54,764 nt of DNA, taken from contig JAGXSD010000043.1 of NCBI GenBank assembly GCA_018333955.1, positions 1-54,764 on the forward strand. The letters are read 5' to 3'. The position numbers and the translations under genes were made by a program. How positions within the stretch are numbered: position 1 is the first letter of the stretch; each line of letters starts with the position of its first letter. This document shows, in pieces, positions 22,538 to 54,439 of the stretch. The stretch is from Erysipelotrichia bacterium (GTDB lineage: Bacteria; Bacillota_I; Bacilli_A; Erysipelotrichales; Erysipelotrichaceae). The notes below the pieces were generated by a model, which saw only the letters and a program-made list of their open reading frames with translations, was not told the DNA's origin and did not search any database.

Positions 22538-23128
22538 ATGAAGCATAAAGTCTTACTCGTCACATCAAATCAGCATAAGCTTTCTGAATTTAATGAAATG
22601 GTAGATAACTCACTTATTGAGTTATACTCCCTTCAAGATATTGGGTTTAGTGAAGACATTATTGAAGATCAAAAGACCTATCATGAACAAGCGATTAAAA
22701 AGGTCGAAGCACTTATTGACTATACTTCAGACTTCATCATTATTGCGGATGATAGTGGAATTGAGATTGAAGCCTTTGATTATTCACCTGGAGTTTATTC
22801 AGCTCGTTTCAAACCTGAAATGACTCAACATGAGCGTAATGAATGGATATGTCAGGAAGTACATAAGACTGATAAAACCCATGCAGCCTTTGTATGTGCC
22901 ATCGCATGTTATATTAAGGGGCAACCCATATTTGTCACAGAAAATCGTTGTTTTGGTCATATTGCATTAAAACCATCTCATGATTTTGGATTTGGTTATG
23001 ATCCCATCTTCATCCCTGAGGGGTATAATGATACATTTCAAACATTACCTAAAGCGCTTAAGAATCAAATCTCACATCGAGCATTAGCCATTCAAGCATT
23101 AATGCACTATTTAAAAGGAGTATTATGA
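22538..23128 (+). CDS. rdgB: Non-canonical purine NTP pyrophosphatase (RdgB/HAM1)
   Basis: RdgB hydrolyses ITP, dITP and XTP to monophosphates and keeps deaminated purines out of DNA and RNA. The 196-residue product has the start VLLVTSNQHKLSEF, the metal site IIADDSGIEIEAFDYSPGVYSARF, the HDFGFGYDPIFIPEGY motif and the final KNQISHRALAIQAL. The size is standard. It overlaps the next gene by 4 bases (ATGA) and leads a run of genes to 24851. Confidence 0.95.
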   Translation: MKHKVLLVTSNQHKLSEFNEMVDNSLIELYSLQDIGFSEDIIEDQKTYHEQAIKKVEALIDYTSDFIIIADDSGIEIEAFDYSPGVYSARFKPEMTQHERNEWICQEVHKTDKTHAAFVCAIACYIKGQPIFVTENRCFGHIALKPSHDFGFGYDPIFIPEGYNDTFQTLPKALKNQISHRALAIQALMHYLKGVL

Positions 23129-23778
23129 AAAAAATTCTGATTATACTAATTCATGTCAGTGTAATGATTTCACTATTTTTATTGAGTATTCGTCTTCTTG
23201 GACTTGAACCTTATTTCTTTCAATGGTTTTATACTCAAAACAACACAGCTGCATTACTTGGGATGTCTTATCCTGATTTAATGCGAGCCACTAATCAATT
23301 ACTGGCCTATATGCTTGATAAAAGTGATACCATTCAAAGTGTTGTGATGGTCAATAACACTTCAACACTGATGTTTAATCAGCGTGAGATTGATCATATG
23401 GTGGATGTGTTAGCATTAATTCGAGCAATGCGAGTATTTATGTTTTTCTCTTTATCCATTGCTTCAATTGCATGGTTTACCAACAGAAAAAAATCCTGGT
23501 TCAAAGATCTATTCAAGAAGACTTATAGCATAGCTTTAGGTTTACTTGGAGGGTTTATTGGTGGACTAAGTGTTTTTGCAATCCTCGATTTTCCTGCATT
23601 CTGGCATTTATTTCATCAAGTTTTATTTACCAATGATCTTTGGCTTTTAGATCCTAGAACTGATCGATTAGTCAACATGGTGCCACTTAATTTCTTTATG
23701 ACACTTGTATTTTCAATCCTATTTATGGGAACACTACTAAATGTAGGTTATGCATGGTTTGTCAAGAAAACTGGATAA
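23125..23778 (+). CDS. lit: DUF1461/TIGR01906 membrane protein, Lit-like lipoprotein transacylase
   Basis: The 217-residue product has four probable membrane segments (about 5-25, 100-118, 134-155, 188-212). It matches the DUF1461/TIGR01906 layout: a large outer loop with LGMSYPDLMRATNQLLAYML, then EIDHMVDV, then FHQVLF and LDPRTDRLVNMVPLNFF. The characterised members in Enterococcus and Bacillus are Lit, which moves an acyl chain from the diacylglyceryl cysteine to the N-terminus of lipoproteins, making lyso-form lipoproteins. Conserved histidines used by Lit have likely counterparts here in His91 and His161 or His164. The family match is firm; the enzymatic role is inferred from it. Confidence 0.75.
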   Translation: MKKILIILIHVSVMISLFLLSIRLLGLEPYFFQWFYTQNNTAALLGMSYPDLMRATNQLLAYMLDKSDTIQSVVMVNNTSTLMFNQREIDHMVDVLALIRAMRVFMFFSLSIASIAWFTNRKKSWFKDLFKKTYSIALGLLGGFIGGLSVFAILDFPAFWHLFHQVLFTNDLWLLDPRTDRLVNMVPLNFFMTLVFSILFMGTLLNVGYAWFVKKTG

Positions 23779-23793
23779 AAGGGAGGATATTTT

Positions 23794-24300
23794 ATGATTC
23801 ATATTGTTTTATATGAACCTGAAATCGCACAAAATGTTGGAAATATTTTGCGCTCATGTGCTGCACTCAATGCACAGTTACACGTGATTCATCCATTAGG
23901 TTTTTTACTTCATTCTAAAGAGTTTAAAAGGGCCATGATGGACTATGACCAACTTATGGAACTGCAGGAACATGATACTTTAGATGATTGTTTATCATCC
24001 ATTTCTGGTGAAGTATACTACATTACACGTTATGGGATGAAAACACCGAGTGAATTTGATTTTAAAGCCGTCAACAAAGATATTGTGGTGGTTTTTGGTA
24101 AAGAAAGTACGGGCATTCCTAAACCTATTTTAAGAGAAAATTTATCTCATTGTATCCGTATTCCAATGCATCCATTAGCCCGTTCAATGAATGTCTCAAA
24201 TACCGTTGCAATCATTTTATATGAGATTCAACGTCAACTAGATTATGAAGGATTATCAAGTGTTGAAGTGCTTAAAGGAGAGGATTGGTTGTTACGATGA
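23794..24300 (+). CDS. trmL: tRNA (cytidine/uridine-34-2'-O)-methyltransferase
   Basis: TrmL methylates the ribose of the wobble nucleotide of certain tRNA-Leu species. The 168-residue SPOUT protein is the minimal form without an RNA-binding extension: IVLYEPEIAQNVGNILRSCAA at the N-terminus, FGKESTGIP, and the knot-forming IRIPMHPLARSMNVSNTVAIILYE. A GGGAGG site precedes the ATG. Its stop overlaps the next start (ATGA). Confidence 0.93.
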   Translation: MIHIVLYEPEIAQNVGNILRSCAALNAQLHVIHPLGFLLHSKEFKRAMMDYDQLMELQEHDTLDDCLSSISGEVYYITRYGMKTPSEFDFKAVNKDIVVVFGKESTGIPKPILRENLSHCIRIPMHPLARSMNVSNTVAIILYEIQRQLDYEGLSSVEVLKGEDWLLR

Positions 24301-24852: not shown

Positions 24853-24871
24853 ACGAGACAAGGTGAGAAAC

Positions 24872-25015
24872 ATGATAACAGGGATTAGAGATGTCTTATC
24901 AATGATTTTATTAATATCTATCATTGGTGTAGTATTTTTTACTTTGTTTCGCTCACTCAGTTTATCAAAGATTCAATCTCATATTGAAGAAGAAATCGAA
25001 TATTACAAGGAGTAA
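24872..25015 (+). CDS. Small membrane peptide, 47 residues
   Basis: A short open frame starting MITGIRDVLSM has a good AAGGTGAG binding site 4 bases upstream. It encodes one hydrophobic segment (about residues 9-25), a basic patch, and a C-terminal acidic helix with EEEIEYYKE. Its stop is 6 bases before the TTG start of the CNNM protein gene, and that gene's AAGGAG site overlaps its last codons, so the two are coupled. Function unknown. It resembles small accessory subunits of membrane proteins, but I cannot assign a family. Confidence 0.65.
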   Translation: MITGIRDVLSMILLISIIGVVFFTLFRSLSLSKIQSHIEEEIEYYKE

Positions 25016-25021
25016 CCCATT

Positions 25022-26293
25022 TTGGACAGTACGCAGAGTACCATGCTTGTTGGTCTTATCATTTTATTTTGTTTTTCCGCACTATTTTCAGCCTCGGAAA
25101 CAGCCTTTTCAAGTCTAAATCCAATTCGCTTAAAACAGTATGTTAAAAACGAAGTAAAACATGCCCAGCAAGCACTAGATTTAGTGAATGACTATACCCA
25201 TGTCATTACAACCATTCTAATTGGCAATAACATTGCGAATATTGCGATGACAACTTTCGCAACCTTGCTTTTTTCAAGCATTTTTAAAGGGAATTTAGCA
25301 TTAAGTATAAGCATGAGTGCTTTAACGATTATGATTCTTCTGTTTGCGGAAATCTTACCAAAAGTTTTAGCCAAACAACATCCTGAAAAGTTTGCGATTG
25401 CGACAACCCCTTTGATTATCTTGTTTAGGTTTTTGTTTTCACCTATCGCATCACTCATGAGTTTAGTTGAAACCAAAGTGATTAAACAGGGGAATGAAAA
25501 AGTTACGGCCACTGAAGATGAATTCATTGATATTGTACAAACCATTGAGATGGAAGGTGTACTTGATCAAGAAGAGCGAGAACTTATTGAAAGTGCTATT
25601 AGCTTTGATGATAAGACCGTACGTGAAATTATGAAACCTCGCGATCAAGTTGTCTTCTTATATGATAATGCAAGTTCAGAGCAAATTCTCAATGCGGTAT
25701 CAACCCATAAATATTCTCGTATCCCTGTCATATCGTATGAAGGTTTGTATGCGGTGGGAATCATTCGTGAGCGTGATGTCCTTGAATGTTTACTCAATAA
25801 GAAAGACATAGCGATGGCGAATTTACTTCGTCCTGTGAGTTATATTGCGCAGCGTCAACGACTTCAAAATGCTTTAGAGAAATTACAAAAATCACGAGAA
25901 CATATGGCCATCGTCGTTGAAACGATGAAAAATAAAAACTTTGTCGGGATTGTTACTCTAGAAGATATTCTTGAAGAAATTGTCGGTGAAATTTATGATG
26001 AATATGACGATTTACCAAAGTATGTTGTTGAAATAGGACATCATACCTTTGATATAGAAGGTATTGTCCCTGTTAAGAAATTTTTCGACGATTATCTAGA
26101 CGATGATGATGAGGTTCCAACCCAAGCTAAAACCTTTAGTGATTGGATTGATGAACTTGCTGAAGGTGCACGTCTAAGAAAAAATAAAGAATTCAAACAA
26201 GAGAACTACGCTTTAAAAATACTTCAAGTTAAAGAAGGAAGAGCAGTTCGTATTGAATTAAATGTATATTCAAAAACAAGTCAAGATGACTAA
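25022..26293 (+). CDS. CNNM/CorC (HlyC-type) membrane protein with CBS pair
   Basis: The 423-residue product has an N-terminal DUF21/CNNM domain with about four membrane segments (FSASETAFSSLNPIRLKQ; residues 1-150). A CBS pair follows (about 195-320, with PRDQVVFLYDNAS, YSRIPVI and GIVTLEDILEEIVGEIYDEYD) and then a C-terminal CorC_HlyC domain. Characterised relatives export or exchange Mg2+ (MpfA, YhdP, CorC). The start is TTG at 25022: AAGGAG lies 9 bases upstream, and the next ATG (25043) has no site. It is in a unit with the small peptide and ridA. Confidence 0.9.
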   Translation: MDSTQSTMLVGLIILFCFSALFSASETAFSSLNPIRLKQYVKNEVKHAQQALDLVNDYTHVITTILIGNNIANIAMTTFATLLFSSIFKGNLALSISMSALTIMILLFAEILPKVLAKQHPEKFAIATTPLIILFRFLFSPIASLMSLVETKVIKQGNEKVTATEDEFIDIVQTIEMEGVLDQEERELIESAISFDDKTVREIMKPRDQVVFLYDNASSEQILNAVSTHKYSRIPVISYEGLYAVGIIRERDVLECLLNKKDIAMANLLRPVSYIAQRQRLQNALEKLQKSREHMAIVVETMKNKNFVGIVTLEDILEEIVGEIYDEYDDLPKYVVEIGHHTFDIEGIVPVKKFFDDYLDDDDEVPTQAKTFSDWIDELAEGARLRKNKEFKQENYALKILQVKEGRAVRIELNVYSKTSQDD

Positions 26294-26305: not shown

Positions 26306-26845
26306 ATGTATCAAGGAATTCATTCACCACATGCCCCAAAAGCCATTGGACCTTATTCTCCAGCGGTAAAATTAGGGGATTTCGTATATTTATCAGGGCA
26401 ACTTCCTATTGATCCATTAACAGGGGAACTTGTTAAAGGCGATATGTATGAACAAACGTATCAAGTTTTGCGTAACATGGAAGCTGTACTATCAGAAATG
26501 GGGTTGGAACTACGCCATGTTGTTAAAACGACCGTTTATGTAACTGACTTAGCATTCTTTAATCAGTTTAATGAAATTTATGCCACTGTGTTTCAAGACC
26601 CATATCCAGCACGTACAACCGTACAAGTGGCAGCCCTTCCAATGGGAGCGATGGTTGAAGTTGAAGCATTAGTAATTGATACATTAGCTTATGAAGCTCA
26701 CATGCATCATCATCACGATCATGACCATGAAGGTTGTGGATGTGGAGGACATCATCACCATGAAGGTGAAACATGCAATTGTGGTAAACCCATGGAAGAA
26801 TGTGAATGTGATGGCACCTGTGAAGGGGATTGTGGCTGTAAATAA
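26306..26845 (+). CDS. ridA: RidA-family deaminase with a His/Cys-rich C-terminal tail
   Basis: RidA hydrolyses reactive enamine/imine intermediates such as 2-aminoacrylate to ketoacids and ammonia. Residues 1-130 are a complete RidA domain: PKAIGPYSPAVKLGDFVYLSGQ, VKTTVYVTDL, the active-site Arg103 in PARTTVQVAALP and Glu120. Family members normally end near residue 125-130. Here a tail of 49 residues (131-179) follows, with 11 His and 9 Cys in clusters (HHHHDHDH, CGCGGHHHH, CNCG, CECDGTC, CGC), which looks like a soft-metal binding segment. The frame is continuous and ends just before a strong terminator. Downstream in this window sdaA makes 2-aminoacrylate, a RidA substrate. Confidence 0.93.
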   Translation: MYQGIHSPHAPKAIGPYSPAVKLGDFVYLSGQLPIDPLTGELVKGDMYEQTYQVLRNMEAVLSEMGLELRHVVKTTVYVTDLAFFNQFNEIYATVFQDPYPARTTVQVAALPMGAMVEVEALVIDTLAYEAHMHHHHDHDHEGCGCGGHHHHEGETCNCGKPMEECECDGTCEGDCGCK

Positions 26846-26848
26846 ATC

Positions 26849-26880
26849 AAAGATTCATGATTATTCATGAATCTTTTTTT
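26849..26880 (+). terminator. Terminator after ridA
   Basis: AAAGATTCATGA (26849-26860) pairs with TCATGAATCTTT (26865-26876) around TTAT, followed by a T-run. Confidence 0.93.
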
Positions 26881-26924: not shown

Positions 26925-27389
26925 ATGATTCCATTACTCATTATAAAAACAGACACTTTAATTCAACTTGTTTATCATGATCATATTGAAAATTTAACTC
27001 ATCAATCACTTTCAAGTTGGTTTCATCAACAATGCTTATCTCATGGAACGACACTCAAAGGAAGTATGGATGCCATGCGTTTTCATTTAAAAATCAGACA
27101 AAAGATTCCAGTTTGTCTAAGTGCCATTCAAGGATTGATGTATTTTCCATTAACATTACAAGATTGTGAAGTATGGATTTTATATCACGTCGAATATACT
27201 ATCAAACGGGATGGACTTTATTCAGTTCTAACCATTCATAAATTATCATTTAAATTTCCTCTTGATCCAAGAGTCATTCGACGCCAATTTATTCGCTGTC
27301 GTCAATATCTAGAATCATTTCAAAGAGTTCCATCAATGACAAACCTTAGCCATGTTTACGAGTCTTTAGTTTCTCAATATCTCATTTAA
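26925..27389 (+). CDS. ComK-like competence regulator (probable)
   Basis: The 154-residue product is not obvious at first but follows the ComK pattern. A Ser/Gly-containing segment (about residues 28-46) is followed by QKIPVCLSAIQGLMYFPLTLQDCEVWI (residues 59-85), like ComK's K-x-P-I/V block with the F-P-T/L-x-S-x4 stretch and a Trp-Ile. Then come beta-rich residues, a stretch (SFKFPLDPRVIRRQFIRCRQYL) resembling the conserved I-x2-S-x3-x-Q-x2-R helix region, and a short C-terminal helix. ComK activates late competence genes such as comEA and comEC, which are present in this window. SD AGGAG precedes the ATG. It lies between two transcription units and appears to be monocistronic. The match is by pattern, not by database. 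Confidence 0.6.
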   Translation: MIPLLIIKTDTLIQLVYHDHIENLTHQSLSSWFHQQCLSHGTTLKGSMDAMRFHLKIRQKIPVCLSAIQGLMYFPLTLQDCEVWILYHVEYTIKRDGLYSVLTIHKLSFKFPLDPRVIRRQFIRCRQYLESFQRVPSMTNLSHVYESLVSQYLI

Positions 27390-27430: not shown

Positions 27431-28306
27431 ATGACACATCCAAATAACATGAAATCAACACGTAACCACGTTAAATCTTTTTTACTTGTAGTATTATCAT
27501 CCATGCTCGGTGCTTTAGCGATCAAAATTTTCATCGAGAACGGAAATTTATTCCCAGGAGGCTTTGCGGGTATTTCTGTTTTGATCCAACGACTATCACT
27601 TCGCTATTATGATATTGTAATTCCATTTGGGGTTTTATATTTAGCCCTTAATATCTATCCAACCATTTTAGTGTACCATTTTGTAGGAAAATGGTTTACT
27701 CGTTATAGTATTCTTCAAATTGTATTAGTTTCCTTGTTTGTGGAAATCATTCCAGAAATTGTCATCACAAATGACATTCTACTCATTGCAGTCTTTGGGG
27801 GAATATTCTCAGGGTTAGCGGCATCACTTTCGTTAATGGCGAATGCGAGTGGGGGAGGAACAGATTTTATTGCTTTATACATTTCTCATAAGACGAATAC
27901 ACAGTCTTGGAACTATATCCTTGCAGGGAATGCTGTCATTTTAGGCATTGCAGGGTTGTTATTTGGATGGGAAATTGCACTCTACTCCATTATCTTCCAA
28001 TTCGTTTCCACAACCATCGTTTCGAACTTATATCAACGTTACAAACTCATGAGTATTCGTATGTTTACGGCTTATCCTGATGAACTCACTGCAGCGATTC
28101 TATCTCAAACTCGCCATGGCATTACAAAAATCTGGGGCGAAGGTGGATATAGCAAAAAAGAAGTTTGTATGCTTTACATGGTCGTAAATACGTATGAAGT
28201 CAATCAAGTCGTAAGTATTGCACAGTCAGTCGATGAAAAGGTATTTATTGATATTTCCAAAACTGAAAAAGTCATTGGAAATTATTATCGAAAACCGTTA
28301 GACTAA
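27431..28306 (+). CDS. YitT-family membrane protein
   Basis: The 291-residue product has about five or six membrane segments in its first 200 residues (GALAIKIFIENGNLFPGGFAGISVLIQRL; GGIFSGLAASLSLMANASGGGTDFIAL) and a cytoplasmic DUF2179 domain after residue 210 (GITKIWGEGGYSKKEVCMLYMVVNTYEVNQV). This is the YitT/DUF161 family, whose transport function is unknown. The start at 27431 has no usable Shine-Dalgarno (AAGGT directly abuts the ATG), consistent with a leaderless mRNA; a second ATG at 27449 is possible. A hairpin terminator follows. Confidence 0.88.
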   Translation: MTHPNNMKSTRNHVKSFLLVVLSSMLGALAIKIFIENGNLFPGGFAGISVLIQRLSLRYYDIVIPFGVLYLALNIYPTILVYHFVGKWFTRYSILQIVLVSLFVEIIPEIVITNDILLIAVFGGIFSGLAASLSLMANASGGGTDFIALYISHKTNTQSWNYILAGNAVILGIAGLLFGWEIALYSIIFQFVSTTIVSNLYQRYKLMSIRMFTAYPDELTAAILSQTRHGITKIWGEGGYSKKEVCMLYMVVNTYEVNQVVSIAQSVDEKVFIDISKTEKVIGNYYRKPLD

Positions 28307-53224: not shown

Positions 53225-54439
53225 ATGGAATCATTAAAAGAACTCTATAAAGCAGGTCCAGGACCATCAAGTTCCCATACATTAGCCCCAATGCGTGCAT
53301 GTGAGTTATTTAAAGAGCATGTCAAGGATGTTACTCATTATGAGGTTGAATTATATGGTTCACTTTCGTTAACTGGAAAAGGTCATTTTACCGATGCGAT
53401 TATCGAAAAAACCTTAGCACCAACCCCAACCAAAGTTTTATTTAAAACCGATTGGGATTATGATTTTCCTTCAGGTTTAATATTAAAAGCTTTTAATCAT
53501 GATCGTTTAGAACTCACCTGGGTTGTCTATTCACTCGGAGGTGGTTCGATTAAAATCCTTAATAGTGAATACGATTTTCAAAAATCCATCTATCCTGAAA
53601 CGTCGTTATGTGAAGTCTATGAATTCTGTAAAAAACATAAACTAACATTACCTCAATATGTTTATCATTATGAGCCAGATATTAAACCATATTTAGAAGA
53701 GATGCTGATGGTGATGTTTGCGTCAGTTCGTGAAGGATTAAAGCAAGAGGGTCTACTTCCAGGGACATTAAAACTTAAACGTGTTGCGAAAGATTTACAT
53801 TTTAAAGCCTCTCACAGCACCTCAGAAGATAAAGGCAAACGATTAAAGTTAATGGCTTATTCGTACGCTGTCAGTGAGCAAAATGCGTCTAATCAAACCG
53901 TAGTGACCGCTCCTACGATGGGAGCATGTGGTATTCTGCCATCACTCCTGTATTATGCATATTATGATTTAGGTTTTGAAAAGCATCGTCTCATTGATGC
54001 TTTAGCTGTCGCAGGCATTTTTGGGAATCTGATCAAAACCAATGCTACAATTTCTGGAGCGATTGGAGGATGTCAGGCTGAAGTGGGGAGTGCATGTTCG
54101 ATGGCAGCCGCAGCTAAGGCATTCCTTGATGGTCATTCCATGCGCATCATTGAAAATGCAGCTGAAATTGCGATGGAACATCATTTAGGTCTTACCTGTG
54201 ATCCTATTGCCGGATATGTCATGATTCCTTGTATAGAGCGCAATGCGGCGGCAATTATGAGAGCATTTGATGCGGTATTTATGGCTTCCACACTCGGAGA
54301 TTTTAAAGATAATGTGGTAGGCTTTGATGAAGTTGTTTCTACGATGAATTATACAGGTCAGAAACTGGTGGTGGAACTGAAAGAAACATCACTGGGTGGA
54401 CTTGCTACGATTGTGAATGTCGATAAAAAAAGTGTTTAG
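53225..54439 (+). CDS. sdaA: L-serine dehydratase, iron-sulfur-dependent, single chain
   Basis: SdaA converts L-serine to pyruvate and ammonia by way of 2-aminoacrylate, using a [4Fe-4S] cluster. The 404-residue product fuses the beta domain (GPGPSSSHTLAPMRA, near residue 12) and the alpha domain (APTMGACGILPSLLYY, GGCQAEVGSACSMAAAAKAF, LTCDPIAGYVMIPCIERN) in one chain, as in the E. coli enzymes, whereas many Firmicutes have two separate genes. Cluster cysteines in the last two blocks are present. ATG begins right after the holA stop. The C-terminus is intact, and an IS element begins 11 bases later. Confidence 0.95.
   Translation: MESLKELYKAGPGPSSSHTLAPMRACELFKEHVKDVTHYEVELYGSLSLTGKGHFTDAIIEKTLAPTPTKVLFKTDWDYDFPSGLILKAFNHDRLELTWVVYSLGGGSIKILNSEYDFQKSIYPETSLCEVYEFCKKHKLTLPQYVYHYEPDIKPYLEEMLMVMFASVREGLKQEGLLPGTLKLKRVAKDLHFKASHSTSEDKGKRLKLMAYSYAVSEQNASNQTVVTAPTMGACGILPSLLYYAYYDLGFEKHRLIDALAVAGIFGNLIKTNATISGAIGGCQAEVGSACSMAAAAKAFLDGHSMRIIENAAEIAMEHHLGLTCDPIAGYVMIPCIERNAAAIMRAFDAVFMASTLGDFKDNVVGFDEVVSTMNYTGQKLVVELKETSLGGLATIVNVDKKSV

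Follow-up and report, generated by a model that had tools for sequence, protein, structure and literature searches.

The RidA protein encoded in the window (the whole 54,764-nucleotide stretch of Erysipelotrichia DNA analysed here) carries a Cys-rich C-terminal tail that is conserved in its relatives, is under selection and is retained even in copies that have lost the catalytic Arg. Judging from the composition of the tail, we put the chance at about one half (0.5) that it is a disordered segment chelating a soft or borderline metal on a RidA deaminase, where it would work as a buffer, sink or low-specificity donor. RidA, whose conservation across all domains of life ranks with the broadest of any protein, is not known to use a metal.

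The initial annotation placed a complete RidA domain in residues 1–130 of the window protein, and profile matches bear this out. Pfam Ribonuc_L-PSP (PF01042), the sole Pfam domain above cut-off, spans residues 9–123 with 138.3 bits against a cut-off of 27.3, and TIGR00004 spans residues 4–124 with 152.3 bits against a curated cut-off of 106.25. Relatives in the PDB match at E 1e-35, the best of them being 123–156 aa long and aligning over the core only, and the AlphaFold2 model has pLDDT >90 across the core. Arg103, in the motif PYPARTTV, is invariant across our alignment (A1) and is the equivalent of Arg105 of TdcF, an essential residue according to the 2015 Rid family survey (PMC4433059). 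With its active-site residues intact the window protein, the only RidA found in the source genome, would be an active-type enamine/imine deaminase in which deaminase activity is expected. The length of RidA proteins is typically ∼125–130 residues, a usual value with no strict bound, and the 179 aa of the window protein exceed it by a tail at residues 131–179, for which the counts of 11 His and 9 Cys in 49 residues given earlier are exact. Residues 1–130 contain no Cys.

Features of the window discussed in the text
Feature	Position	Strand	Evidence
Upstream syntenic block: rdgB/Ham1 (22538-23128), lit (23125-23778), SpoU-type methylase, trmL-like (23794-24300)	22538..24300	+	
50-aa ORF upstream of the CNNM gene	24863-25015		
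CNNM/CBS-domain membrane protein, 12 bp upstream of ridA	25022..26293	+	PF01595 1e-44
ridA gene with tail, 179 aa	26306..26845	+	PF01042 1.6e-40, TIGR00004 6.9e-45
RidA core, residues 1-124; Tyr17, Arg103, Glu118/Glu120 present, no Cys	26306..26677	+	Alignment, PDB relatives, AlphaFold2
Junction helix IDTLAYEAHM..., residues about 126-138	26681..26719	+	Relatives' alignment, AlphaFold2 (helix 127-137)
Tail rich in His (11) and Cys (9), residues 131-179, disorder predicted	26696..26842, stop at 26845	+	Composition, AlphaFold2
Hairpin and T-run between ridA and comK, probable terminator	26850..26880	+	Sequence, terminator scan
comK-like gene, conserved ridA neighbour	26925..27389	+	PF06338 4.9e-6
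YitT-family membrane protein, conserved syntenic neighbour	27431..28306	+	PF02588 1.1e-43
sdaA, 27 kb from ridA	53675-54406		PF03313

While the core is modelled as well folded, tail pLDDT values of about 49–66 predict disorder. The helix at the junction of core and tail bears a motif, (I/L/V)DTLxYE, that marks most members of the tailed RidA subfamily. To place the composition of the tail we counted Cys and His in the last 50 residues of 561 non-overlapping ORFs, taken from 40 contig starts plus the window (609 kb, about one-third of the source genome). The window RidA has the richest C-terminus of this sample, with 20 such residues against 11 in the next distinct ORF and a mean of 2.0 (sd 2.0). 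No second copy of the tail and no other protein resembling it was found elsewhere in the source genome. The NCBIfam SlyD model NF008008 aligns its own C-terminal tail to residues 132–179 at 13.5 bits against a cut-off of 174, which is a resemblance in composition and not homology.

The closest relatives of the window RidA in named records belong to the Erysipelotrichaceae (a contig search that yielded three loci only). A search for other RidA proteins with such a tail, as the initial annotation had proposed, was productive: reading the C-termini of Erysipelotrichaceae loci gave 88 RidA proteins from at least 38 genera with a tail of at least 18 residues and 2–22 Cys, in a set of loci selected for their resemblance to the window protein, a choice biased towards tailed forms, and from a family in which many genomes are incomplete. 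Most of these genes lie at one syntenic locus, and others at a second. Typical tails are GCGGCGGGCSSEEGGCCGGDCCGE (L049), CSGSCDGCSGCD (L015) and EDDEACEGCCCD (L098). The tails consist of 22% Cys, 21% Gly and 22% Asp+Glu with <3% Lys+Arg, compared with 1.3% Cys in the cores, and 83 of the 88 contain CC, CxC or CxxC. Tail length and sequence drift between relatives while the Cys stay, although their spacing is not constant. Minimal tails hold 2–4 Cys (for example CEGCCCD or YCEDCDE), and two congeners of the window organism (L003, L004) have in-frame repeated GCGCGG-HHHH units. The longest tail, in L007 of genome G025, extends 141 residues beyond the core; it includes 22 Cys, and GKGKHDGSGHGKHK segments recur in it.

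Just 15 of the 88 tails have at least three His, mainly those in the genus of the window organism and in genera g8 and g26, the other tails having Cys with little or no His. The tail therefore probably began as Cys-rich and gained His later. Of the His/Cys-rich character described for the window protein, the Cys part holds across the family and the His part does not extend beyond a few genera. Other RidAs of the family are untailed (L020, L034, L092, L094, L100, L104, L109–L113 and L115). They do not share the synteny of the tailed locus and look like separate copies. L014 was rejected as an untailed RidA because its contig ends there.

We compared codons of tailed genes within genera. Tail dN/dS was 0.01–0.25 in most scorable pairs and 0.42 and 0.53 in two others, some pairs being saturated at synonymous sites and giving no value; core dN/dS was 0.01–0.18. 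Differences in tail length are whole codons, the indels being in-frame, and Cys columns are largely retained as other tail residues change. The low tail dN/dS and whole-codon length changes mean that the tail is translated and constrained by purifying selection, chiefly at Cys. This answers the concern that relatives might reveal a random, poorly conserved extension; the tail is conserved and selected.

Five tailed copies (L105–L108 and L114) have Met or Cys in place of the catalytic Arg and a deletion of a core loop, and nevertheless keep the tail (CSHDCSSCGGGCH, YCEDCDE and others). These sit at the other conserved locus, between FtsK/SpoIIIE-like and plsY-like plus topoisomerase-like genes (named by inspection), with a convergent comK-like gene. 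One of them, L107, still matches PF01042 at 1.9e-15. L102, located elsewhere, is a sixth tailed RidA without the catalytic Arg. From their sequences all six are candidate pseudoenzymes and would not count as imine deaminases. Four genomes with Arg-less copies have a separate untailed RidA: G026, G034 and G008 (L111–L113) and G033, where the match ends at residue 124. Nothing points more strongly to a function of the tail's own than its survival in copies whose active site is gone, and its retention after loss of the catalytic Arg makes such a function probable. We advance more tentatively the idea that in the Erysipelotrichaceae RidA turned into a carrier of a Cys-rich tail acting on metal or redox state, and that in some genera, where the catalytic Arg is lost and a separate untailed RidA is present, deaminase chemistry was given up and the tail became the main function. 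The outcome would be a metal buffer or a redox sensor derived from RidA and linked to comK through gene order.

We sampled the order (294 genomes), the class (296) and the phylum (195) and found no RidA with a Cys-rich tail outside the Erysipelotrichaceae; the matches from other families end at about residue 123–135 of the query or extend further only past a stop codon. Among the sampled genomes, drawn from within order, class and phylum, the tail is thus restricted to the Erysipelotrichaceae, and most simply it was gained in the stem of that family. In a tree-based test of single origin the tail label needs 2 changes against a shuffled mean of 21, on a tree with few columns, and genus g60 sits near untailed rows on long branches of this RidA tree. 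Synteny is stronger evidence than the tree for a single origin.

The usual order at the main locus is rdgB, lit, SpoU-type methylase, in some cases CNNM, tailed ridA, comK-like and yitT. A comK-like gene lies no more than 1.2 kb downstream in 59 of the 88 tailed loci, some of the remaining loci being cut short, and CNNM adjoins ridA in a minority of relatives only. No metal transporter or metal regulator was found as a conserved neighbour of tailed ridA. In the window the CNNM gene and ridA are probably co-transcribed. A few bases past the ridA stop a hairpin, AAAGATTCATGA...TCATGAATCTTT, is followed by T; the terminator scan gives its score for the minus strand, but on the plus strand the hairpin likewise ends in T-rich sequence. 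The initial annotation pointed to the CNNM gene and a membrane peptide beside ridA, and to sdaA as the source of the RidA substrate. The neighbours are where it placed them, but this context does not support a metal or substrate link, as CNNM adjacency is confined to a minority of relatives and sdaA is too far away for linkage. The CNNM/CBS protein also gives a sub-threshold match to the model of the polyamine exporter PaeA (134.7 bits against a cut-off of 500).

In the sister family an untailed ridA directly precedes a ComK-like gene, as do many tailed ones; this call rests on an iterated profile built here, Pfam alone confirming ComK in Erysipelotrichaceae and not in the sister family. The pairing of ridA with comK therefore appears to predate the tail, and the two genes may be functionally linked. 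A comK-like gene stands beside ridA in many Erysipelotrichaceae (L021–L026 and L028, and convergently in L105–L108 and L114). Two contigs of genome G000 (C28 and C29, with L144 and L145), both 13005 bases, have identical ORFs in opposite orientation and probably represent a contig duplicated in the assembly.

Metal chelation as we picture it would have arisen when the Erysipelotrichaceae added a short acidic, Gly/Cys-rich disordered tail to a RidA deaminase. The tail Cys, joined by His in the genus of the window organism, could hold metals such as Zn(II), Cd(II), Ni(II) or Cu(I), and the three tails of a RidA trimer may form one multidentate cluster. We infer such binding, clustering and buffering from the composition of the tails, their CC, CxC and CxxC motifs, the retention of Cys, the low dN/dS, the predicted disorder and the persistence of the tail without the catalytic Arg. 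Because relatives retain clustered ligands but differ in tail length and ligand order, we prefer a buffer, sink or low-specificity donor, like the tails of SlyD and metallothioneins, over one defined metal site. The variable length, the range of 2–22 Cys and the repeated GCGCGGHHHH units suit such a capacity-type function, and the in-frame His repeats might give the genus of the window organism more capacity or broader specificity. Counting against storage, a single chain with a minimal tail of 2–4 Cys has not enough ligands for it, so that the trimer would have to combine them. The soft-metal or redox role first suggested for the tail survives as the best reading of its composition, stripped of its arguments from CNNM and sdaA.

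Neither HypA nor SlyD was found in the source genome, where the sole FKBP domain belongs to a frame of 432 aa, more probably trigger factor than SlyD. These results weaken a nickel-hydrogenase role. With no nickel client of the [NiFe]-hydrogenase kind evident, delivery to such an enzyme is unlikely, and SlyD/HypB-style nickel delivery is disfavoured, judging from a search confined to HypA and FKBP-domain proteins. A nickel-style reading also misfits the family as a whole, because across the family the tail is rich in Cys and contains little His.

The main rival to metal chelation is a redox switch, in which tail Cys, by reacting with oxidants or by forming disulfides, with or without release of Zn, would change the activity, the oligomer state or the chaperone function of RidA, on the pattern of the Zn-Cys domain of Hsp33. 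We rank it as such because E. coli RidA is a holdase activated by bleach, whose one Cys is a target of peroxynitrite; this activation, however, is independent of Cys, which counts against a thiol switch (PMC4284807). The CxC, CxxC and CC motifs are the most constant element of the tails, and tails of 2–4 Cys fit a switch better than a store. We also count in its favour that Erysipelotrichaceae are largely anaerobic. A switch would nevertheless leave the enrichment in His and acidic residues unexplained, and the Cys spacing is variable, unlike that of Hsp33, so that we regard it as possible but improbable. Our doubts are greater about a structural or interaction element, be it a small Zn knuckle or a partner-binding tail possibly tied to the product of the neighbouring comK gene. 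The shortest tails do resemble a single CxxC-type site, and the adjacency of ridA and comK is old, conserved and found at the other locus as well; but that adjacency predates the tail, and tail length and motif are too variable for one fold.

The RidA substrate is a reactive enamine, and tail thiols near the active site might trap 2-aminoacrylate or other electrophiles, many of these thiols being free. Such a scavenger would trap the compound only stoichiometrically, next to an active site that clears it anyway, it would not account for the His, and the tail persists in copies without the catalytic Arg, which together make it a very improbable explanation. Scarcely credible, finally, is a functionless low-complexity extension produced by read-through or slippage. 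Length variation and repeats are what it would predict, but spread over 38 genera, dN/dS far below 1 with Cys kept, and retention of the tail after loss of the active-site Arg largely refute it.

By keeping a Cys-rich tail on RidA even where the active-site Arg is lost, the Erysipelotrichaceae would tie the control of metabolite damage to the state of metals or thiols, and their natural pairs of tailed and untailed RidA are material with which to test that link. Within the RidA subfamily (Rid/YjgF/YER057c/UK114, including E. coli TdcF, Salmonella RidA and B. subtilis YabJ) the window protein shares the full core, the catalytic Arg, Tyr17 and the Glu equivalents, whereas its tail has no counterpart in the alignments of solved relatives, which cover the core only. 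The rearrangements described in the passages of the 2015 Rid survey covered here are tandem or fused RidA domains, the family is divided there by core residues, and those passages make no mention of Cys-rich tails (PMC4433059). A description of a Cys-rich RidA tail was not found in the open literature searched, most subscription papers being beyond the reach of that search.

Among other proteins, metallothioneins share with the RidA tails a high Cys fraction with CxC and CC motifs. They are stand-alone small proteins, however, whereas here the Cys-rich segment is a tail on RidA, and the RidA tails are set apart by being Gly- and acid-rich with hardly any Lys. Hsp33 has a defined Zn-Cys domain, and a C-terminal Cys cluster is common to both proteins, but the Cys spacing of RidA tails is not fixed and the Pfam scan detected no Hsp33 domain. 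Mycobacterial GroEL1 has a His-rich, Cu-binding tail that like the RidA tail is lineage-specific on a housekeeping protein, differing in the protein that carries it and in its His-richness (PMC10170517). The nearest functional parallel comes from SlyD of E. coli and H. pylori, a housekeeping enzyme with a disordered His/Cys/Asp/Glu-rich C-terminal tail that varies between species and through which each protein binds several Ni(II) or Zn(II) ions (PMC7055735). SlyD is an FKBP prolyl isomerase and the window protein, a RidA, lacks the FKBP-type PPIase domain; most Erysipelotrichaceae RidA tails are, unlike that of SlyD, Cys-rich with little or no His, while the tail of the window protein appears to match the SlyD type in composition and predicted disorder.
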